Shown piece by piece: positions 12,944-49,299 of a stretch of 64,000 nucleotides of DNA (positions within the stretch are counted from its first letter, which is position 1; every line of letters begins with the position of its first letter). Source of the stretch: Chlorobiota bacterium (GTDB taxonomy: Bacteria; Bacteroidota; Bacteroidia; Bacteroidales; F082); contig JAUVKF010000003.1 in the NCBI GenBank assembly GCA_030596395.1, positions 24,407-88,406 on the forward strand, given 5' to 3'. Both the position numbers and the translations under genes were made by a program. The notes below the pieces were generated by a model. That model was not told the origin of the DNA and did not search any database. It saw only the letters and a list, made by a program, of their open reading frames with translations.

Positions 12944-14464
12944 TCAATTCCGAATCGGTGCATCCAATCCCTGCTCAATCATCCATTCGGGAAGTTCGGG
13001 TTTGTGGCTTAAAGTTTTTTTACGGAAAGGGCTCCACAACAGTGTAAATATATCTGAGGCTGTCATATATCGGCCAAATTTTCGTAAGAGCCTGAAAGTG
13101 GCTACAGGACGATAGAGTACCAGGTAACCAAACAACTTCATATATCCCTTTTTCCTGGCTTGGTGAACTACTTCGCTCGGAAGAATTGTTGGATCAATAT
13201 CAGAGCATTTGAACCACTTATACCAATCGCACTCATCATCAATGATACCTTTATCAACATATTCCTGCCAGAGCGGGGTTCCGCGGTAAGCGCAAAGCCG
13301 ATTAAAGCCAAATGTGTCGAGCTTAAGCCTGGCAGCGAAACGGAAACTTTCAACAATGTCGTCAACCGTTTCATCCGGCGATCCGATCAGGAAAAAGCCG
13401 TGTGCTGTTTCAATTCCGACTTTTTTGGCTTGTTTTACAGCATTTTCTATCTGTTCGATGGTCTGGTTCTTGTTCAGTCGGTCGAGTACTTTCTGTGTTC
13501 CTGCTTCAATGCCAAAGGCAAGAAAAGTGCAGTTAGCCTTTACCATTAATGGGAGTTCCTCTACAGCCAGTGAATCCACTCTACCTTCACAGCCCCAATG
13601 GAACCCCAGCTTTCTGTCAATGATCCCATTACAGATGGCCTCGATGCGTTTCCGCTGCATCAGAAAATGATCATCGGTAAGATAAATTGATCTGTAGCCT
13701 TCATCATGCAACTGTTGCATTTCACCCAGTACGTGCTCCGGTGAGCGGCTCCGCCACCTGCCTCTGGCCAAAGATGGAATGTCGCAATAGATACATTGAA
13801 AAGGGCAGCCACGTGTTGTTTGCATGGTACAAAAACGGTCGAGCGAAAGAACAGCCGGCACATCCAGCGGCATCGATTCGATATACTCGATGGGCAGGCT
13901 TTTCCTGTCGGGATAAGGAAATTGGTCGAGGTCTTTGATCAACGGTCTGTCAGGATTATGCACTACCTCTCCGTTCGACCGCCAGGTAAGACTTCCCACT
14001 ATTTTCAGATTATCCAGGTTGTCGAGGTACTCAGGAATCAGTTCTTCACCTTCCCCCCTGCCTACACAATCGATGTACGGTGCATCATTCATAATTTCAA
14101 CAGCATTAACTGTTGCAAATGCTCCTCCAACAATAATGGGTGCTTTCGGTGCTGCTTTCTTCAGCCGTTGCGCCATACTCTTCATAACATTGTATGAAGT
14201 AGTTGAAAGAAAAGAAAGAGCAAGTATATCAGGTTCTTCCTCTTTCACGGCTTGCTCGATGTGCTCTTCCTTCATCTTTGGATGGCATGTATCGAACATC
14301 GTGACCTCGTGTCCGTGGCTGCGGATTACCGGCGCCAGTGTCTGAATGCCAAGTGGCGGGAAAGCCATCACCTCAATGCGGTCACTGTTTTCTTGTTTCC
14401 TGAGTTTTTCAGGAAGAATATTGTAATAATCCTCGTCGCGGATATAAATGAGGAAGATCTTCAT
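12944..14464 (-). CDS. B12-binding-domain radical SAM protein
   Basis: Radical SAM enzyme of 506 residues. The N-terminal 160 residues form a cobalamin-binding-like Rossmann domain (PPLGIQTLAPVIRSHGHEVTMFD, then VGGAFAT and the GRGEGE segment). The canonical DxHxxG cobalamin-ligating motif is absent, as in many relatives. The radical SAM core begins at TTRGCPFQCIYCD with Cys220, Cys224 and Cys227 binding the [4Fe-4S] cluster. GIEAGTQKVLDRLNK and HGFFLIGSPDET are typical later motifs of the BchE/HpnP-like group. The substrate cannot be inferred: neighbours are unrelated and no biosynthetic cluster is present. The oxygen-sensitive cluster fits an anaerobic or microaerobic host. Confidence 0.88.
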   Translation of the reverse strand: MKIFLIYIRDEDYYNILPEKLRKQENSDRIEVMAFPPLGIQTLAPVIRSHGHEVTMFDTCHPKMKEEHIEQAVKEEEPDILALSFLSTTSYNVMKSMAQRLKKAAPKAPIIVGGAFATVNAVEIMNDAPYIDCVGRGEGEELIPEYLDNLDNLKIVGSLTWRSNGEVVHNPDRPLIKDLDQFPYPDRKSLPIEYIESMPLDVPAVLSLDRFCTMQTTRGCPFQCIYCDIPSLARGRWRSRSPEHVLGEMQQLHDEGYRSIYLTDDHFLMQRKRIEAICNGIIDRKLGFHWGCEGRVDSLAVEELPLMVKANCTFLAFGIEAGTQKVLDRLNKNQTIEQIENAVKQAKKVGIETAHGFFLIGSPDETVDDIVESFRFAARLKLDTFGFNRLCAYRGTPLWQEYVDKGIIDDECDWYKWFKCSDIDPTILPSEVVHQARKKGYMKLFGYLVLYRPVATFRLLRKFGRYMTASDIFTLLWSPFRKKTLSHKPELPEWMIEQGLDAPIRN

Positions 14465-41518: not shown

Positions 41519-42916
41519 TTAGTTGTTTACATTGAACATCGTAACGCCTGCGTTGGTCACCACCCAAACATTTCCTCTTTTATCTTCAAAAATACTTTTG
41601 ATGTGGTTGTCAGCCAGTCCGTTACCCTCTGAATAGTGAATCCAGGCATTATCATTTGTCTGTCGGTAAATGCCATTTTTCTTTGTTCCAACCCAGCACG
41701 ACATTCTCCTGTCAACAAAAATTATTTCAGCATCCCAGTCATCCTCAGGTGTATAAATATTTTCCCAGGCCTGTCCTGTAAACTGATAAAGCCTTTGGTT
41801 ACCAGCTAACCAAATCCGTCCAAACCTATCCTTTTTTATGAGGTTGTATTTTTTATCTTTTAAGCCTGAGTTCCGTGTATAAGCCAGCCACTTACCCGCT
41901 TTGAACCTTGAAACTCCCGAAGCTGAAAACGCAAGAACAACAGAGTCTGCAAACAATAGTTCATCAATTGCCCTCTTTAAATGGATATCTTTTTCGGAAA
42001 AGGCTTTCCAGCTACTACCATCAAATAAATTTAATCCGGTTGGACTGTAATTGCTATGCGTATATGCCCAGATTCGGCCAAAAGGATCCATTTTCAATAT
42101 ATGAATCGCCTTGTTGGTTAATCCATCTGTTTTATTGAAATTTGTCCACTTGCCAGAGCTATACCAGGAAACACCACGTTCGGTTGCCAGCCAGATTTCG
42201 TTATTATTTCCCTTTAATAAAGCAAATATTTTTTTTGCATCAATCTTGTCCCTTGAATATTCTTCCCAATCCTCCCCATTATAACTGTAGAGGTTATCAA
42301 GCGAACTTATCCAGATGTTTCCACTTGTATCTTCAATTATCCCGGTAAAATATCTGTCTGACCCGATTACATTGTCAAGGCTGGCACTACCGGCAATGTC
42401 AGCATTAAATTCATACCAAACCGATCCGTCAAACATATTAATCGTTCCATTAATTATCACAACACCGAGATCCTTTTTTAAATCCTGCGAATATTCCATT
42501 GTTGTCCATAGCCTTCCCTGTGTGTCTTCAAAAAAATGCTTCACCTGGTAATCTTCGTCGTCATTTATAAAGTCAATCCAATATTCCATGTTATAGAAAA
42601 AAAGACCATTTTTTGTGCTTGTCCACATATAGCCATTCCGGTCTTCATAAATTGCTTCTACCTTGCCCAAGGCTTTGGTTTTGCCTGAAGTATTTTCGAT
42701 GTGGCTTATCTTGTGCCAGGTTGTACCGGTAAAAGCATTTAATCCGCGATTTGTTCCTAACCAAACAATACCTCTTGAATCGACGAAAGTTGTGGTAATA
42801 TCATTTGATGTAAGCCCATTCGCTTTTGAATAATTGATAATTGTATCCTGACCGCTGGCCTGCCTGAGACAAGCAACAACAATCACTATCAAAAAACCTC
42901 TGAATAAAGAAAACAT
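41519..42916 (-). CDS. Two-component-regulator propeller (Reg_prop) protein without a kinase domain
   Basis: Secreted protein of 465 residues, signal peptide to ASGQ near residue 23. The whole mature chain is a propeller of Reg_prop units: VDSRGIVWLGTNRGLNAFTGTTW, EDRNGYMWTSTKNGLFFYNMEYW, EDTSGNIWISSLDNLYSYNGEDW, KMDPFGRIWAYTHSNY, KKDRFGRIWLAGNQRLYQF and EDKRGNVWVVTNAGVTMFN. In Bacteroidota these propellers usually form the sensor of hybrid two-component systems; here the frame ends after the last blade, with no transmembrane, histidine kinase or T9SS domain. It may be a free periplasmic binding protein, or the sensor module lost its downstream part. No downstream gene resembling a kinase follows. 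Confidence 0.8.
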   Translation of the reverse strand: MFSLFRGFLIVIVVACLRQASGQDTIINYSKANGLTSNDITTTFVDSRGIVWLGTNRGLNAFTGTTWHKISHIENTSGKTKALGKVEAIYEDRNGYMWTSTKNGLFFYNMEYWIDFINDDEDYQVKHFFEDTQGRLWTTMEYSQDLKKDLGVVIINGTINMFDGSVWYEFNADIAGSASLDNVIGSDRYFTGIIEDTSGNIWISSLDNLYSYNGEDWEEYSRDKIDAKKIFALLKGNNNEIWLATERGVSWYSSGKWTNFNKTDGLTNKAIHILKMDPFGRIWAYTHSNYSPTGLNLFDGSSWKAFSEKDIHLKRAIDELLFADSVVLAFSASGVSRFKAGKWLAYTRNSGLKDKKYNLIKKDRFGRIWLAGNQRLYQFTGQAWENIYTPEDDWDAEIIFVDRRMSCWVGTKKNGIYRQTNDNAWIHYSEGNGLADNHIKSIFEDKRGNVWVVTNAGVTMFNVNN

Positions 42917-43715: not shown

Positions 43716-44768
43716 TTAGTAATTAAAGCCAAATGCCGCCGGAATAATACCTGCATCAATCTCACTAATATAATTGCCAGCAGCATCATAGCGGTAAACT
43801 AAACCAGATGATTGATAATCTTTCGGGTTGCCGATATAGATATTGTCATTGGAAGGGTCTACTCCTAAATAACCAAAAAACTGATTATTTTCCTGGCTGA
43901 TCAGTGGTGTTGATGGTAGCTGGTCATCATTTACTGACATTGTAAACACACCATTATTCAGGAAGTATAACTGATCTCCATTACCATTGATCTTTAATGC
44001 GGAAGGACTTGACTCCAATACATTAAATGTATAAGTGTGTAATACTTCGCCATTTGCTCCATTGATTTTCCATATAGTCGGGAGTTCTTCATTTAAATAC
44101 CCACCGGAGCATAGCACCCATAAGTTGCTGTCTTTGTCTGAAACAATGCTGTTTGGTTCAATTCCTACTTTAATGGTATCAACCAGTTTATCCGTATTGG
44201 TATCAAGCACCAGAACAACGTCATTTTTCAGCTGCTGGCCATAAGCCGAGTAATTGGCGACATATGCTTTGGCTCCGATTAGTACCATTTCTTCTGATGA
44301 CCTGTTTAGTTCAATGGTTCCTGTTACCTCAAATGTAGTTGAATTAACAATGGATATGTGATGATCGTACAGGTCGGAGATATATGCTTTTTCACTGTTT
44401 AAAATCAACATATTTCGCGGAGAAGCCAGCCCGGTTATTTTTCCGCTTAGTTTGGCATTCTTTCTTTCAATACAATAAACCACCCCCGAGTTATTAACGA
44501 CAATAAAAGCTTTGTCTTCCCACAAAGTGATGCTTTGGGCAACATCGCCCAGCGGGATTTTGTTTACTTCCGTAAATAAATTATTGATGAGTATTTTTGA
44601 CCCCGTCTCAAAGTATGACAAAGAAGCATTTGCAGCATTGAAGGTACCCTGATTAATAATAAATACACCTTTTGCCAAATCATGATCCTGTTGCTCAGGC
44701 GACTCATCTTTTTTACATGCCTGAAAGATAAACAACAGGCTAATTAACAGTACAATTAAATTTCTCAC
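43716..44768 (-). CDS. BtuG-like beta-propeller lipoprotein (YncE/DUF5074-like)
   Basis: Lipoprotein of 350 residues; lipid Cys18 (LLFIFQAC). The mature chain is a seven-bladed YncE-like propeller: GVFIINQGTFNAANASLSYFE, AQSITLWEDKAFIVVNNSGVVYCIE, PRNMLILNSEKAYISDLYDHHISIVN, SEEMVLIGAKAYVANYS, EPNSIVSDKDSNLWVLCSGGY, SPSALKINGNGDQLYFLNNGVFTMS and FFGYLGVDPSNDNIYIGNPKDYQSSGLVYRY. This is the architecture of BtuG, the surface B12-binding propeller of Bacteroides that hands cobalamin to BtuB. It is the last gene of the riboswitch-controlled operon and overlaps the TonB receptor gene by four bases. BtuG assignment is by fold, position and regulation, not by direct identity. Confidence 0.78.
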   Translation of the reverse strand: MRNLIVLLISLLFIFQACKKDESPEQQDHDLAKGVFIINQGTFNAANASLSYFETGSKILINNLFTEVNKIPLGDVAQSITLWEDKAFIVVNNSGVVYCIERKNAKLSGKITGLASPRNMLILNSEKAYISDLYDHHISIVNSTTFEVTGTIELNRSSEEMVLIGAKAYVANYSAYGQQLKNDVVLVLDTNTDKLVDTIKVGIEPNSIVSDKDSNLWVLCSGGYLNEELPTIWKINGANGEVLHTYTFNVLESSPSALKINGNGDQLYFLNNGVFTMSVNDDQLPSTPLISQENNQFFGYLGVDPSNDNIYIGNPKDYQSSGLVYRYDAAGNYISEIDAGIIPAAFGFNY

Positions 44769-46717
44769 TTGTTTCTATTTAACTTAAACGACAAGAATAT
44801 CTCATAATTTCTACCTGGCATCGGCCTCCATAAAACAGCCTGATAATCTGTATCAAAAAGGTTATTCACTTTAAAGCGGGCTTCCAAACCGACTTTTTCA
44901 AAATCCCATTGTTTACCAATTGCAACATCATTCAGTACATAAGCAGGTAACTTACTACCGATGGTATTTTGTTCGCCAACATAGTGAACATTCCAATTAA
45001 TATAATATAAGCGGTAACCCCAGCTGATCAGTCCGTTACCTGTATGCCTTGGTATGTAGATCAACTGATCATCATCATTGATATCATTTGATGTTTCATT
45101 TACATTGGAAGTACGTGTGTAAGCATATTCAAAGAAAATACGGTAATTTGATTTTCCGGCATGGCCATCCAGATGTGCAGTAAACTCCACTCCCCTAGCA
45201 AACACTTTGTTGATATTTTCGGGGCTCCAATAACCCGATCCTGTATCTACCCACTGTATCCAATTATTTATTTTGGAAGCATGAGCTGTTATATCTGTTT
45301 TGATCAACAAAAAATCACCCGCGGAAAAAGCATAATTAATTCCTGCTTCCGCTTCAAAACCATCTTCCGGTTTAAGGTTTTCGTTTCCTCCCGGATACCA
45401 GTACAGGTCATTTAAAGTAGGCAAATGGTAATTTCTTGAGATACTCATTCGTAAATAGAGATCCTGGTTTTTTAGCAACTTAATATTCAACCCAAACAAT
45501 GGCATCAATGGCAACATATCGGCATCTGACATTTGTGTTCTCAATAAAAGACTTATTTTCAAACGGCTCCAGAAATCCTTCTTTACCTGGACAAATAAAC
45601 TTTGTGTATTTCTTTGTTTAATTTCGTAGTAATTATTTGAGTTAACGCTCTCAAAATCAACATCCATGCCTGTTGCTAATTCAAATCCTTTTTGAAAAGA
45701 GCGTTCATATTTCGCCTTCACAAAAACACCATTTGTCTTATTTAGTGAATGAACCAATGTATCACCCACATCAGGTAAGCCATCGGAATCATTTTGCAGG
45801 TTGTAGGTAAAATTCTCATAAAAGTATGCCGCTTTAAGTTCAAACCTTGACCTGTTTTTGTGATAGGACCAACCCAAAGTATTCCGCGTAAAAATATCAT
45901 CCTGGTATTCCTTTTTCCACTCACTTGATTCAACACCGGTCATCAATGGTGGATTATTCCTGAAATTCCACTGATTCCATGTTGAAAATGAAAGTATATG
46001 GTGCACATTGGGTCGATAGCTGAATTGCTGTGTAAATCCGATATTCCGGTAATCCGCCTTATCCTGTTTCATTTCTTGCGCAGGAATGATTGCATCGTTG
46101 TAATAGGGAAAATCGTTTTTTGAGGATTGGTAGATAAATCGCGTATTTGAGGCAAACTTTTCATTTCCAAGATTCAGTCCGGCTGATGATGACCACGTAT
46201 TAAAACTGCCGTAAGTTTGCGATAGAGAAACCACCGGAGTTCCTGAATGGAAAGGCTCATTAATAAGGTTAATTCCACCGCCAAAGCCACCACTCGATTT
46301 TACAAGCGATGCACCGCCATAGTGTAACTCCACCTCATCAAAAAATGAATTGGGCAGGAGTGAAAAATCCGTCTGCCCCAGCATGGGCGAATTAAGCCTG
46401 AAATCATTCCAGAGAACCTGGGTATGCGAAGCTCCTGTCCCACGGAATGAGGCGGTAGCAAGGCTTCCTTTTCCGTACGAGCGAATAAAAACCGGAGTAT
46501 ATGATGATAGTAATTCACCCAGATCAACATTGTTAAGTGACTGCTTAAACATGCTGTCGATGGTGCTTTTTTTAGTGGTCGCAAGATAATCTACTTCGTA
46601 CCCCAGCACCTCCAATTCGTTTAAAAATAAAGTGTCAAAAACCATTTGTCCTGTTGAATCCATTCCAAGAAATAAAATGAACATCAGGATTAAATGATAT
46701 TTGTGCAGGCCTCTCAA
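44765..46717 (-). CDS. btuB: BtuB-like TonB-dependent cobalamin receptor
   Basis: Outer-membrane receptor of 650 residues. The signal peptide is followed by an N-terminal TonB-box-like region (FDTLFLNELEVLGY), a plug domain (LGELLSSYTPVFIRSYGKGSLATASFRGTGASHTQVLWNDFRLNSPMLGQTDFSLLP, then GASLVKSSGGFGGGINL) and a 22-strand-type barrel ending in RPMPGRNYEIFLSFKLN with the terminal aromatic strand. It lacks the N-terminal carboxypeptidase-regulatory-like domain of SusC proteins, in keeping with vitamin or metal receptors. It is downstream of a cobalamin riboswitch, which supports B12 as the ligand. Four-base overlaps on both sides couple it to the BtuG-like and T9SS genes. Confidence 0.82.
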   Translation of the reverse strand: MRGLHKYHLILMFILFLGMDSTGQMVFDTLFLNELEVLGYEVDYLATTKKSTIDSMFKQSLNNVDLGELLSSYTPVFIRSYGKGSLATASFRGTGASHTQVLWNDFRLNSPMLGQTDFSLLPNSFFDEVELHYGGASLVKSSGGFGGGINLINEPFHSGTPVVSLSQTYGSFNTWSSSAGLNLGNEKFASNTRFIYQSSKNDFPYYNDAIIPAQEMKQDKADYRNIGFTQQFSYRPNVHHILSFSTWNQWNFRNNPPLMTGVESSEWKKEYQDDIFTRNTLGWSYHKNRSRFELKAAYFYENFTYNLQNDSDGLPDVGDTLVHSLNKTNGVFVKAKYERSFQKGFELATGMDVDFESVNSNNYYEIKQRNTQSLFVQVKKDFWSRLKISLLLRTQMSDADMLPLMPLFGLNIKLLKNQDLYLRMSISRNYHLPTLNDLYWYPGGNENLKPEDGFEAEAGINYAFSAGDFLLIKTDITAHASKINNWIQWVDTGSGYWSPENINKVFARGVEFTAHLDGHAGKSNYRIFFEYAYTRTSNVNETSNDINDDDQLIYIPRHTGNGLISWGYRLYYINWNVHYVGEQNTIGSKLPAYVLNDVAIGKQWDFEKVGLEARFKVNNLFDTDYQAVLWRPMPGRNYEIFLSFKLNRNK

Positions 46718-47724
46718 CGTTTGATCAGTTTATGAATTTCAGTTCCTTCTTTTGAAGTGATTTGCATAAAATATAAACCCGGGAGCCAGGGAGTTGTTTG
46801 CAACTTGATTTGTTCTGAATCTGTTTTAATATCAGCTACTATGCTACCCACATGATCAAATATCCGGACCCTGATGATCCGGATTTTTGCTGATATAAAA
46901 AGATTGTTAGTAAAAGGGTTTGGGTAGATGAGTATCCCTGGCTCACCGGGTATATCTGTTATATCATTGCTTTCTTCGTTGTATATTACCCCGACGGCAT
47001 CCAAATCAAAACCTCCAGAGTCAAATGGTGTTGGCCAGGGGTCGTTTACTTTGTTCCCCTCAGAATCAAAACTTGCATACTCGTCATTAATACTGCCCAC
47101 AACATCCGCAATTCGAACGGCCACAATATGATTAACATTTAGTTCCTCAATCTGCAAAAGTTCTTCCAGGTCGAATGGCACACCATAACCGCCGCGATAT
47201 TTTCCGGCCAAATTATTTAGCTCTTGTGCTTCCAGCGTTCCAAATGATTCAATCTGTTCCTCAGTTTGAGTCAATGATGTAGCAGGAAATCGAAAGAATT
47301 GTTCTCCGTCCGAACTCACTTCCACAAAAGCCAGTTCGAGGAAAAAGTCATCAAAACCATTCTCAAACACGGCAAAATCAGGGCCGGATCCATTGACAAT
47401 CGCAACATTAAATCCCAGTGTAGACCTACCTCCATCGCCCAGGCTAATTATTGAAAAGTCAGCCTTACCCAGTGCCAGATCAATTGATCCTACACTTACT
47501 TTTCCCAGTGATGTATCGGCAATATTGATCCAAGCCCGCTCAATGCTGCAAGATGAAGCCCAGGCAATAAATACCGTACTATCTGCATGTATGGCAGTGG
47601 TTCCCGGCTCTCCGGCTGGCGGAGCAAACTGCGCTATTACCTGAACGCTTATAAAAAAAATCATTCCGGTAATTACTAAATTTTGCAGGTACCGGAATGA
47701 AAAATATTTTTTGCTAAATATCAT
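46714..47724 (-). CDS. T9SS-exported B12-operon surface protein
   Basis: Secreted protein of 336 residues. The signal peptide ends near VQVIAQ, after which a beta-rich domain of about 210 residues contains SIISLGDGGRSTLGFNVAIVNGSGPDFAVFENGF and FLELAFVEVSSDGEQFFRFPA. The end, GGFDLDAVGVIYN, precedes a T9SS sorting domain (IYPNPFTNNLFIS through GTEIHKLIKR). The 'GPDFAVFENGF' module is found in Bacteroidota proteins encoded beside B12 receptors and resembles a discoidin-like carbohydrate or ligand fold. Being in the middle of the riboswitch operon, it may be a B12-binding or receptor-partner protein comparable in role to BtuH. That role is inferred. Confidence 0.72.
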   Translation of the reverse strand: MIFSKKYFSFRYLQNLVITGMIFFISVQVIAQFAPPAGEPGTTAIHADSTVFIAWASSCSIERAWINIADTSLGKVSVGSIDLALGKADFSIISLGDGGRSTLGFNVAIVNGSGPDFAVFENGFDDFFLELAFVEVSSDGEQFFRFPATSLTQTEEQIESFGTLEAQELNNLAGKYRGGYGVPFDLEELLQIEELNVNHIVAVRIADVVGSINDEYASFDSEGNKVNDPWPTPFDSGGFDLDAVGVIYNEESNDITDIPGEPGILIYPNPFTNNLFISAKIRIIRVRIFDHVGSIVADIKTDSEQIKLQTTPWLPGLYFMQITSKEGTEIHKLIKR

Positions 47725-48992
47725 TAGTTTTTAATAAACCTTCCGGTGAATACGGAGGTTTCGGTATTTACTATTATAAAATAAATTCCGGAATTTAATG
47801 TACTAACATCAATCTGTTTGTATTCAGTGTTTCTATAAACAACTTTTCCGGAAATATCTGAAATAATAGTACTCACCATATCCTGATCGTCAGGAATGCT
47901 GAAACTGATCAGACTGCTTGCAGGATTTGGAAAGACATTGAGTTTCTCAACAATCCTCTTCAAATTTAAACCTGTACTATTCCTGTAATCAACAACAATA
48001 GCCTGGGCTGAAATTCCTGCCTCAAAACTACCTGTATTTTCTCCATCAAGATTGTAAATAAATCCCTGACCTGTTGAATAGAAATCAGTTGTAGTAAGAT
48101 AGATCAGATTGTTTACGGTATCAATAACAGATGCGCCAATGGTCATTTGTTGAGGTGCGACAACCAAAGGATTTTCCAGCTCATTAGTTTCAAGATTAAA
48201 CAAACCGATACCGTTATTAATTTCAGCATAAAAATTATTTTGAGCTTGTCCTGTAAGGTTAGCCAATGCAGCATTTTCGTAAAGAAACTCCTCAATTACA
48301 TTACCTTCCAAATCCATTGTAGCCGATCTTGAATCAGTTTCGCCCCATGCGGTCTTCATAAAAGCAGTTATCACATCGTTATAAAAAGCAAAATATCCAA
48401 TGTTGGCAAAGCTTTCGCCATAATCGTCTTCAGAAAGTACAACATTTTGATCCAGGTCAATGGATGCAATCTTTCCTGTAGTACTGCCATATGCTCCGGG
48501 AATAGCAACAAGAGCAATGCTCTCTTTAATCATAATTCCGGAAGCCTCGTCTGATATTTCATCAAATTCTGTAATCAAAGAAAGGTCATCCAATGAAAAA
48601 GTCTTCACAAAATTCTCGGTAACAGGATACCAGAAAGAGGCCACCAAAACTTCTCCATCGGTTGCAAGTTGGTTTACACCGGTTGCAGAAACAGCTGCCA
48701 CTTTTTCGTACGTATCGATATTAAGTTTTACAATTGAATCCTGGGCAGCGACAAAAACAAAAGCTCCGTGAATGACCGCATCCTGAACGGATTGCGTATA
48801 AATTGTTGCGAATTCGGTAGTTTCACCTGATCCGGGGTTGTAGGCCGCAACAGTAACATAATCATCAGGATTACCATAATCGCCACCATTAACGATGATA
48901 ACCTGGTTGGTGTAAGTCGTTTGTGCAATTGCACAATTTGCTGAAAACACAATTATTGGTGCAAACAGTCTGAAAAAGTAATTTTTTTTCAT
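47724..48992 (-). CDS. T9SS-exported propeller-like protein, first gene of the B12 operon
   Basis: Secreted protein of 422 residues; signal peptide to NCAIAQ (residue 24). The mature part (25-345) shows propeller-like repeats: TNQVIIVNGGDYGNPDDYVTVAAYNP, DAVIHGAFVFVAAQDSIVKLN, VNQLATDGEVLVASFWYP, ASGIMIKESIALVAIPGAYG, IGYFAFYNDVITAFM, NNFYAEINNGIGLFN and NLIYLTTTDFYSTGQGFIYN. A T9SS sorting domain follows (VFPNPASSLISFS...GIYFIIVNTETSVFTGRFIKN). It thus resembles BtuG in fold but uses T9SS export instead of a lipid anchor. Its start is about 100 bases after the riboswitch aptamer, and its stop overlaps the next start by one base. Confidence 0.75.
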   Translation of the reverse strand: MKKNYFFRLFAPIIVFSANCAIAQTTYTNQVIIVNGGDYGNPDDYVTVAAYNPGSGETTEFATIYTQSVQDAVIHGAFVFVAAQDSIVKLNIDTYEKVAAVSATGVNQLATDGEVLVASFWYPVTENFVKTFSLDDLSLITEFDEISDEASGIMIKESIALVAIPGAYGSTTGKIASIDLDQNVVLSEDDYGESFANIGYFAFYNDVITAFMKTAWGETDSRSATMDLEGNVIEEFLYENAALANLTGQAQNNFYAEINNGIGLFNLETNELENPLVVAPQQMTIGASVIDTVNNLIYLTTTDFYSTGQGFIYNLDGENTGSFEAGISAQAIVVDYRNSTGLNLKRIVEKLNVFPNPASSLISFSIPDDQDMVSTIISDISGKVVYRNTEYKQIDVSTLNSGIYFIIVNTETSVFTGRFIKN

Positions 48993-49089
48993 AAAAAAAG
49001 TTTTAAGGTTAAATAATTAGTTAATTCACCTCAAAACTTACAGGAAAACCATAGGTATGCCTTGCATATCATTTGCTTTTATCCCGAAA

Positions 49090-49275
49090 GCTTTGAATAA
49101 TAATTTGAACAATGGCAGGTCTTCTGACTTGCTCGCTTTTGAGGCCTTCCCTCTTCGGTTTCCCGGAAAAGTGACCAGCGGTTTCAAAAGCATGAAAAGA
49201 GCTTACAGCAGCGGGAACTGTACAGGATTTACACCTGATTCCCTATTATGCCTTTCATCCGGCCAGATGAAATAT
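49090..49275 (-). ncRNA. Cobalamin (B12) riboswitch
   Basis: Read on the minus strand, it contains the conserved elements in order: GGGAATCAGGTGTAAATCC followed by TGTACAGTTCCCGCTGCTGTAAG, the AACCGCTGGTCACTTTTCC segment, GAAGAGGGAAGG, and the B12 box GCAAGTCAGAAGACCTGCC at about 49114-49132. A TAnnTTTG promoter box (49292-49299) lies just upstream, and the downstream leader runs about 100 bases to the first operon gene. Cobalamin binding normally reduces expression of B12 uptake genes through the adjacent leader. Confidence 0.95.
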
Positions 49276-49291
49276 GGCACCATTGCTGATA

Positions 49292-49299
49292 CAAAAGTA
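49292..49299 (-). promoter_or_regulatory. Candidate -7 box of the B12 operon
   Basis: Minus-strand TActTTTG, about 16 bases before the first conserved riboswitch helix, so transcription would start right at the aptamer. Confidence 0.5.

Follow-up and report, generated by a model that had tools for sequence, protein, structure and literature searches.

A cobalamin-riboswitch operon combining a BtuB-like importer and a BtuG-like lipoprotein with two T9SS-tailed proteins predicted to catch corrinoids

Introduction

What is known of vitamin B12 capture at the cell surface of Bacteroidota comes from gut Bacteroides, whose proteins for this task are lipoproteins. The closest described systems include the BtuB/BtuG complexes of Bacteroides thetaiotaomicron, for which structures are available (PMC10404256; PDB 8bmx, 8p97, 8p98). 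The locus described here contains two genes, called C and D below, that match both partners of these complexes near full length and, as in B. thetaiotaomicron, the genes are preceded by a riboswitch. BtuK1 (PDB 9s6c) is also counted among the closest known systems, as are the BtuJ/DUF4465 (IPR027828) jelly-rolls, which are described as extracellular B12 binders often adjoining B12 transport genes (PMC12751083, PMC13398666). C-terminal tails for extracellular targeting of B12 binders are already in print for this last family, and 229 of 824 DUF4465 proteins carry IPR026444. We take this entry to be the T9SS sorting domain; by annotation, the delivery of B12 binders through T9SS thus has a precedent.

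In a window of 64 kb, which is the whole stretch of DNA that was analysed, we describe a riboswitch-led operon of four genes that probably unites a BtuB-like importer and a BtuG-like lipoprotein with two T9SS-tailed proteins predicted to catch corrinoids extracellularly.

Results

The features of the operon are given in Table 1. Apart from the cobalamin riboswitch, no Rfam match in the window reaches gathering, and genome-wide the RF00174 model matches only here, at the head of genes A to D. Since the match, at 95.3 bits, exceeds the gathering score of 31.5 and covers model positions 1-189, the complete B12 riboswitch that a sequence-only reading had placed on the minus strand is borne out. 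Downstream lie four open reading frames (ORFs) on the same strand, A, B, C and D, with a spacing of 104 bases between the riboswitch and gene A. The ORF coordinates agree with the earlier description of four coupled genes, giving overlaps of 1, 4 and 4 bases for A/B, B/C and C/D, where both 4-base overlaps rest on the ORF caller's choice of TTG (gene C) and GTG (gene D) as start codons. The same reading had seen T9SS sorting domains in two of the four genes, and indeed both PF18962 (cut-off 27) and TIGR04183 (cut-off 23) are exceeded in genes A and B, with no match of either model in genes C and D. The genome also encodes SprA, PorV and PorU, the three T9SS components searched, each over its cut-off.

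Table 1. Position and main evidence of the operon features within the window.
Feature	Position	Strand	Match
Cobalamin riboswitch RF00174, complete aptamer	49097..49299	-	covariance-model match, 95.3 bits, E 1.8e-22
Gene A, 422 aa: predicted signal peptide, BtuG-like propeller, T9SS type A tail	47724..48992	-	
Gene A propeller domain, residues 24-340; Q24 follows the predicted signal-peptide cleavage site	47973..48923	-	
Gene A T9SS C-terminal sorting domain, residues 353-422	47727..47936	-	PF18962 42.6 bits, TIGR04183 42.9 bits
Gene B, 336 aa: predicted signal peptide, BtuH-like domain, T9SS type A tail	46714..47724	-	
Gene B BtuH-like domain, residues 32-255; Q32 invariant (76/76 rows), N122 aligned with BtuH2 Asn399	46960..47631	-	
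Gene B T9SS C-terminal sorting domain, residues 262-336	46717..46941	-	PF18962 43.6 bits, TIGR04183 44 bits
Gene C, 650 aa, BtuB-like TonB-dependent transporter, TTG start	44765..46717	-	
Gene D, 350 aa, BtuG-like lipoprotein propeller, GTG start, lipobox FQAC with Cys18	43716..44768	-	

Among solved structures gene C comes nearest to Bacteroides BtuB, matching 8bmx_C over residues 28-644 (E 1.8e-76); it stays below the cut-off of the NCBIfam TonB-B12 model (TIGR01779), at 97.4 versus 599.7 bits. The best PDB match of gene D is 8p97_B, over residues 6-347 (E 5.1e-69). Judged by its sequence, gene D has what characterizes BtuG, namely a DUF5074 propeller (80.9 bits, cut-off 27.2), a lipobox and a position beside btuB. 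A strict lipobox pattern is found in 32 of 40 gene D copies; a looser one recovers all 40, and the strict pattern is preferred because the looser one is also triggered by gene A (8 copies) and gene B (31 copies).

The structure comparison (VIA) of gene A returned BtuG at all of ranks 1-11, and the best six matches of a profile search against PDB sequences were BtuG as well. On the predicted model and these profiles, the T9SS-tailed product of gene A is a propeller of BtuG-like but divergent type, its predicted fold being most like that of BtuG. The Pfam DUF5074 model has no match in gene A, and among 52 gene A relatives it matches one (E 3.2e-7). There is no conserved lipobox either, as Cys20 (SANC) is not conserved among 26 relatives, while A23 and Q24 are each present in at least 90% of 90 alignment rows. 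When four upper-ligand residues named for BtuG2 are compared with gene A and its kin, the counterparts of two, W194 and Y335, are aromatic; Y316 has no aromatic counterpart and W272 is unaligned. TQSVQD and AAQDS, the segments in which gene A is most conserved, differ from the BtuG segments LGDVAQS and VVNNS at seemingly equivalent places.

The 336-residue product of gene B was a candidate second propeller; this was rejected, as its predicted model contains a beta-sandwich-like domain and the structural matches accord with it. The best realigned structural match (VIA) of this domain is BtuH. Among Foldseek's best 50 rows BtuH is absent, and these rows comprise other beta-rich proteins (TM-score to query at most 0.30) and T9SS tails; likewise, the gene's own profile found no BtuH among PDB sequences. 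A direct hhalign comparison with BtuH gave 85.5% over 50 columns only, while the route through a bridging sequence (A9) gave 99.7% and 94.8%, and the control comparison with BtuG 0.2%. On the best realigned structural match and the sequence bridge, the predicted domain appears BtuH-like. Of the B12-contacting BtuH2 residues Q333, N399, H476, Y510, W511 and W577, N399 alone falls within the aligned stretch, where it pairs with the invariant N122 of gene B; no recognisable counterpart of BtuH2 W577/L578 was found in gene B. The protein has no lipobox, there being no cysteine before residue 32, and no PKD domain match.

A DUF4465/BtuJ identity of gene B was also considered and rejected by the Pfam model. 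In this respect DUF4465 proteins differ from gene B: their model, searched at E up to 1, a range in which HMMER filters drop most matches above 0.1, matches none of the 45 gene B domains, and it matches 0 of 16 bridge domains. Neither Foldseek nor VIA lists a BtuJ structure among its best 50 rows for gene B, an absence that excludes nothing.

All four genes occur in 39 of the 58 GTDB loci bearing gene A, so an order private to this genome, which the sequence-only reading had named as grounds for abandoning its claim, can be rejected. The recurring loci carry titles of Bacteroidales, Marinilabiliales and Flavobacteriales. A riboswitch was found in 46 of 55 gene A loci scanned; in seven loci with upstream DNA none was detected at the Rfam threshold, and a B12-box search in these seven gave nothing above background. 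In five genomes of the same genus the riboswitch leads straight into btuB, with A and B absent; genes A and B are optional. Across 148 genomes spread over the phylum, a strong match was obtained in 2 for gene A and in 4 for gene B. Among candidate proteins, 190 of 7,996 scored matched gene A and 7,992 of 8,000 matched gene B, though a BtuH-like domain need not be present in every one of the latter. In the cultured isolate Acidiluteibacter ferrifornacis S-15, locus L051 combines the riboswitch with homologues of A and B, BtuB and BtuG.

In its tree, gene A groups with the copies from loci L002-L006, L008 and L014 at 100/100, a clade that the BtuB data reject (p-AU 2e-24); the two trees are in strong conflict. 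The gene B tree has poor resolution and weak rejections of either alternative, with p-AU 0.0099 for the clade of gene A and p-AU 0.022 for the grouping of BtuB; a joint move of A and B as a single cassette was discarded as over-reading. GC content gave no clear signal.

Discussion

The T9SS tails, together with predicted folds that match known B12-binding proteins, make it likely that additional B12-catching proteins reach the cell surface by a route different from the lipid anchoring of gut Bacteroides. The earlier idea of two surface proteins delivered by T9SS beside one lipoprotein propeller holds in that a BtuG-like and a BtuH-like protein, both tailed, accompany BtuB and a lipoprotein BtuG; however, it had to be amended for the 336-residue protein. 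Its further suggestion, that the two propellers may prefer different corrinoids, is kept here as conjecture. Structure prediction, which that reading had suggested for the 422- and 336-residue proteins, supports a BtuG-like propeller for the former and a BtuH-like domain, not a propeller, for the latter.

Under scarce cobalamin, the riboswitch would permit expression of the operon. The A and B proteins would exit via Sec and signal peptidase I and cross the outer membrane via SprA with PorV, after which PorU would cut their tails and fix their domains on the cell surface. The lipid-anchored product of gene D would sit on BtuB like the BtuG lid of the solved BtuBG structures, and a cobamide could pass from the outer proteins A and B to the BtuG lid, to be imported via BtuB with TonB. 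Because BtuG and BtuH hold the cobamide from opposite faces, a face-to-face relay among A, B and D is conceivable. Fold likeness alone proves no function, and we infer the binding of corrinoids by A and B, their secretion and the hand-over. A wider proposal is put forward tentatively: A and B may form an exchangeable outer-layer module of T9SS-bearing Bacteroidota, inserted between the riboswitch and a resident btuB-btuG pair, in which a secreted BtuG-like and BtuH-like coat on the LPS layer would hand cobamides on, gripping alternate faces, to the BtuG lid with its lipid anchor, with two export routes in one capture system.

Other readings of A and B have to be weighed. Instead of being held at the surface, they could act like siderophores, as free B12 carriers in the medium or on vesicles from which BtuBG retrieves the vitamin. 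A T9SS tail by itself cannot separate attachment from release, and the B12 binders BtuJ1/J2 of B. thetaiotaomicron are described as working on extracellular vesicles (PMC12751083); we nevertheless find this rather unlikely, since the tails are of type A, which PorU of Porphyromonas gingivalis swaps for A-LPS (PMC9143113), and both PorU and PorV are encoded in the genome. It is less likely still that A and B are B12-controlled surface proteins with no corrinoid binding, for example structural or adhesive proteins or PorZ-like parts of surface assembly. The propeller fold is a versatile one, the PorZ propeller model weakly matches 5 of 52 gene A relatives (best 1.8e-4), and BtuK2 and BtuL, from the B12 operons of B. 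thetaiotaomicron, are reported to have shown no cobalamin binding (PMC12751083). Against this, structure and sequence profile link both domains to B12 binders, and in eight loci gene A stands behind a riboswitch although the locus DNA examined contains no match to BtuB. A change of ligand would fit the divergence of the conserved gene A segments from those of BtuG, by which the pocket may have been re-tooled: A and B might catch another tetrapyrrole or corrinoid class that BtuBG handles poorly, such as cobinamide or heme, and so widen specificity without adding capture. This appears improbable, given a riboswitch class that senses corrinoids and an operon that includes a BtuB-like transporter.

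Several Bacteroidota lineages likely export relatives of these B12 binders through T9SS, beside lipoprotein BtuG, and a testable function is offered for unnamed T9SS proteins. The presence of separate parts allows the hand-over proposed for proteins of BtuH and BtuG type to be tested, and the same locus can be compared between genomes that have genes A and B and genomes that lack them.

In the titles, abstract openings and passages of the open-access literature consulted, no description of T9SS-borne BtuG-like or BtuH-like proteins was found. With BtuH (PMC8941943; PDB 7biz) and the BtuH domain of BtuG1/BtuGH (8blw), gene B is linked by the best VIA match and the sequence bridge, and its N122 aligns with the Asn that contacts phosphate. 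BtuH2 is described there as a lipoprotein with PKD domains (PMC8941943), whereas gene B has a T9SS tail, no lipobox and no PKD match. Unlike the BtuB/BtuG system described from B. thetaiotaomicron, here a T9SS-tailed divergent BtuG-like propeller and a T9SS-tailed BtuH-like protein precede the importer and its lipoprotein partner.

Operon Layout and Export Signals

In the window, only the cobalamin riboswitch RF00174 matched at the Rfam gathering score, and in the 3.4-Mb genome it was found only once, at the operon. It is followed after 104 bases by gene A, the first of four same-strand ORFs that overlap by 1, 4 and 4 bases, where both 4-base overlaps hinge on the non-ATG starts of genes C and D.

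Riboswitch, operon genes and two further ORFs of the window
Feature	Position	Strand	Size and start	Basis
Cobalamin riboswitch RF00174, complete	49299-49097	minus		95.3 bits, E 1.8e-22
Gene A, BtuG-like propeller with T9SS tail		minus	422 aa	ORF call
Gene B, BtuH-like domain with T9SS tail		minus	336 aa	ORF call
Gene C, BtuB-like TonB-dependent transporter		minus	650 aa, TTG start	ORF call
Gene D, BtuG-like lipoprotein propeller		minus	350 aa, GTG start	ORF call
ORF with B12-binding domain	12944-14464	minus	506 aa	PF02310, 87.5 bits
Protein two genes downstream of the operon	41519-42916	minus	465 aa	

In the PDB, gene C matched Bacteroides BtuB 8bmx_C (1.8e-76) and, at about 1e-73, the BtuB of 8p97 and 8p98, while staying under the NCBI TonB-B12 cut-off (97.4 versus 599.7 bits). 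Gene D matched BtuG proteins of known structure, along with their homologue 3dsm, at 5e-69 to 4e-65, carries DUF5074 (80.9 bits) and shows a lipobox, FQAC. Complexes of BtuB and BtuG, the counterparts of genes C and D, have been solved (PMC10404256).

Genes A and B both end in PF18962 and TIGR04183 tails above cut-off, and the same search found neither tail in genes C and D. The genome encodes the T9SS translocon SprA (2560 bits), PorV (431 bits) and two PorU-like sortases (1303 and 1231 bits). In both proteins the predicted signal peptide closes with AQ, which fits the Q-rule described for Bacteroidetes proteins that signal peptidase I cleaves (PMC5837995). A23 and Q24 of gene A are kept in at least 90% of 90 rows (alignment A3, the window plus 89 of 120 listed matches) and Q32 of gene B in 76 of 76 rows (A4, the window plus 75 of 120 listed matches); the Cys at residue 20 of gene A is not conserved. 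In P. gingivalis, PorU swaps type A tails for A-LPS (PMC9143113), and the tails of genes A and B would be exchanged in the same way here.

Two further ORFs of the window were recorded. The 506-aa ORF lies some 30 kb away from the operon and looks like a radical SAM protein; the 465-aa protein has repeated W-G-T motifs, as in propellers, and its start resembles a signal peptide.

Distribution of Gene A Loci

A scan of GTDB contigs with the gene A alignment gave 58 loci. By their titles 56 are MAGs; the others are Acidiluteibacter ferrifornacis S-15 (L051), with the riboswitch and all four genes, and Aureispira sp. CCB-QB1 (L054). Of the 58 loci, 47 have gene B, 46 have BtuB and 40 have BtuG. 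All four genes occur in 39 of the 58 (in one, L053, the contig end cuts gene A) and in 37 of the 48 with at least 4.2 kb downstream of gene A. T9SS tails were found on 56 of 58 gene A and 46 of 47 gene B copies, the three tail-less copies all being cut by contig ends, and on none of the 40 BtuG copies of these loci, 32 of which match the strict lipobox pattern.

RF00174 was detected in 46 of the 55 loci scanned for it (L053, L058 and L059 were left out), with 45 to 254 bases between it and the gene A match downstream. An exact B12 box is present in L059. Two of the nine misses (L030, L041) are cut before or within gene A, while in L032, L034-L038 and L040 upstream DNA is present, yet neither RF00174 at gathering nor a B12 box was found. 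The six of these seven that the BtuB tree includes form one clade there (100/100) and keep the order A-B-BtuB-BtuG, so that control there must differ. Eight loci (L031, L039, L043, L045, L048, L054, L055 and L056) have the riboswitch and gene A with no match to the window BtuB in at least 4.2 kb downstream, which ties gene A to cobalamin control on its own; among them only L055 has gene B in the downstream DNA, and in L031 an ORF of 792 aa resembles a different TonB-dependent receptor.

Some loci show further features. Gene A of L043 and L056 contains Ig-like and cadherin-like repeats ahead of the T9SS tail, and the ORFs that follow it have ends similar to an ORF with an FGE-sulfatase (SUMF1-like) domain lying between gene A and BtuB in L050 (8298-9800). 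The ORF after gene A in L054 (8554-9807) gave weak GDSL-lipase-like, PKD and T9SS-tail matches. L042, titled Candidatus Woesearchaeota archaeon, carries the riboswitch, gene A, BtuB, gene B and BtuG, and is in all likelihood a contig of Bacteroidota that was misbinned. The sequence bridge to BtuH is formed by L094-L110, a distant group of gene B; 13 of its 17 members have a T9SS-like tail match, and nine of the 17 sit between a BtuB-like and a BtuG-like ORF.

In a wider sample of 148 genomes spread over the phylum, SprA was found in 117 and RF00174 in 145. Gene B kin occur in 22 genomes, four of them with strong matches (E below 1e-70); the gene A profile matched in 27, strongly only in its own genome and in genome G101. 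The close A-B pair is thus patchily distributed over the phylum rather than general. The riboswitch listing covers 13 of the 22 genomes with gene B kin: in 10 of them a listed riboswitch is found no more than 6 kb from gene B on its contig, and in three it is not. All 22 are SprA-positive, which is weak evidence, since 19 of the 20 listed genomes that gave no SprA match come from one family.

Genes A and B Are Optional

In a scan of 60 relatives, gene A was matched over its full or nearly full length in 20 of 31 genomes from other genera of the family, in one of 24 from other families of the order and in none of the five from the same genus. These five hold six riboswitches, each leading directly into BtuB. 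The window riboswitch is preceded by a gene that looks like one for an S41 protease, and five of the six have this gene in front of them as well; the locus of the sixth is short. Compared with G003, a same-genus genome, the DNA of the window matches across the riboswitch up to the start of gene A and again in BtuB. Genes A and B are optional.

The window BtuB shares 81% identity over 459 residues with that of G003 and 41-47% with those of the 11 loci nearest by gene A; with the BtuB of A-bearing relatives its identity over the first 146 residues does not exceed 60%. Between the window and L002, gene A is 75% and gene B 67% identical, and of 703 pairs the two most deviating are window-L002 and window-L003. 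In the BtuB tree the window groups with G003 (100/99), and the clade seen for gene A is rejected (p-AU 2e-24); the best tree does not unite the window with all five same-genus rows, but such a clade is not rejected (p-AU 0.31). The gene A tree recovers its own clade (100/100), and for gene A the grouping of the BtuB tree is rejected (p-AU 5e-5). As the tested clades were named after the trees were seen, these p values and those of gene B below are optimistic. Given this conflict the histories of gene A and BtuB differ, for which transfer would most simply account. The gene B tree is poorly resolved and weakly rejects both the gene A clade (p-AU 0.0099) and the BtuB grouping (p-AU 0.022), so that joint movement of A and B is one way to read the data and not an established result. 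The remaining row sets comprise 52 of 56 domains (A5, leaving out L005, L007, L022 and L024), 45 of 47 rows (A6) and 38 of 40 rows (A7), both leaving out L005 and L024, and L111 with 18 of 120 listed proteins (A8).

Proposed Working and Relation to Known B12 Binders

At low cobalamin the riboswitch would allow synthesis of the operon, as shown for B. theta operons (PMC12751083). After Sec export of the proteins, gene D would be lipid-anchored with BtuB, and genes A and B exported by T9SS; capture would be followed by transfer to BtuG and TonB import. A relay among A, B and D would be permitted if they share the geometry in which BtuG and BtuH hold the cobamide from opposite faces. CbiC was looked for in the 94%-complete genome and not found, and there are nine B12-binding-domain matches, seven over cut-off; this gene content would suit scavenging, although a single missing marker at this completeness does not prove auxotrophy.

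B12 binders with C-terminal targeting tails have a precedent in DUF4465. IPR026444 is the T9SS sorting domain. In DUF4465, 229 of 824 are reported to carry it (PMC12751083). By the Pfam model, gene B itself is not a DUF4465 protein. Term searches of PMC8941943, PMC6143338, PMC10404256, PMC12751083 and PMC13398666 for type IX or T9SS gave no hits, and searches of open-access PMC text turned up no account of T9SS-borne BtuG-like or BtuH-like proteins. The T9SS-tailed BtuG-like and BtuH-like pair beside BtuB is a variation on the known surface B12 binders.
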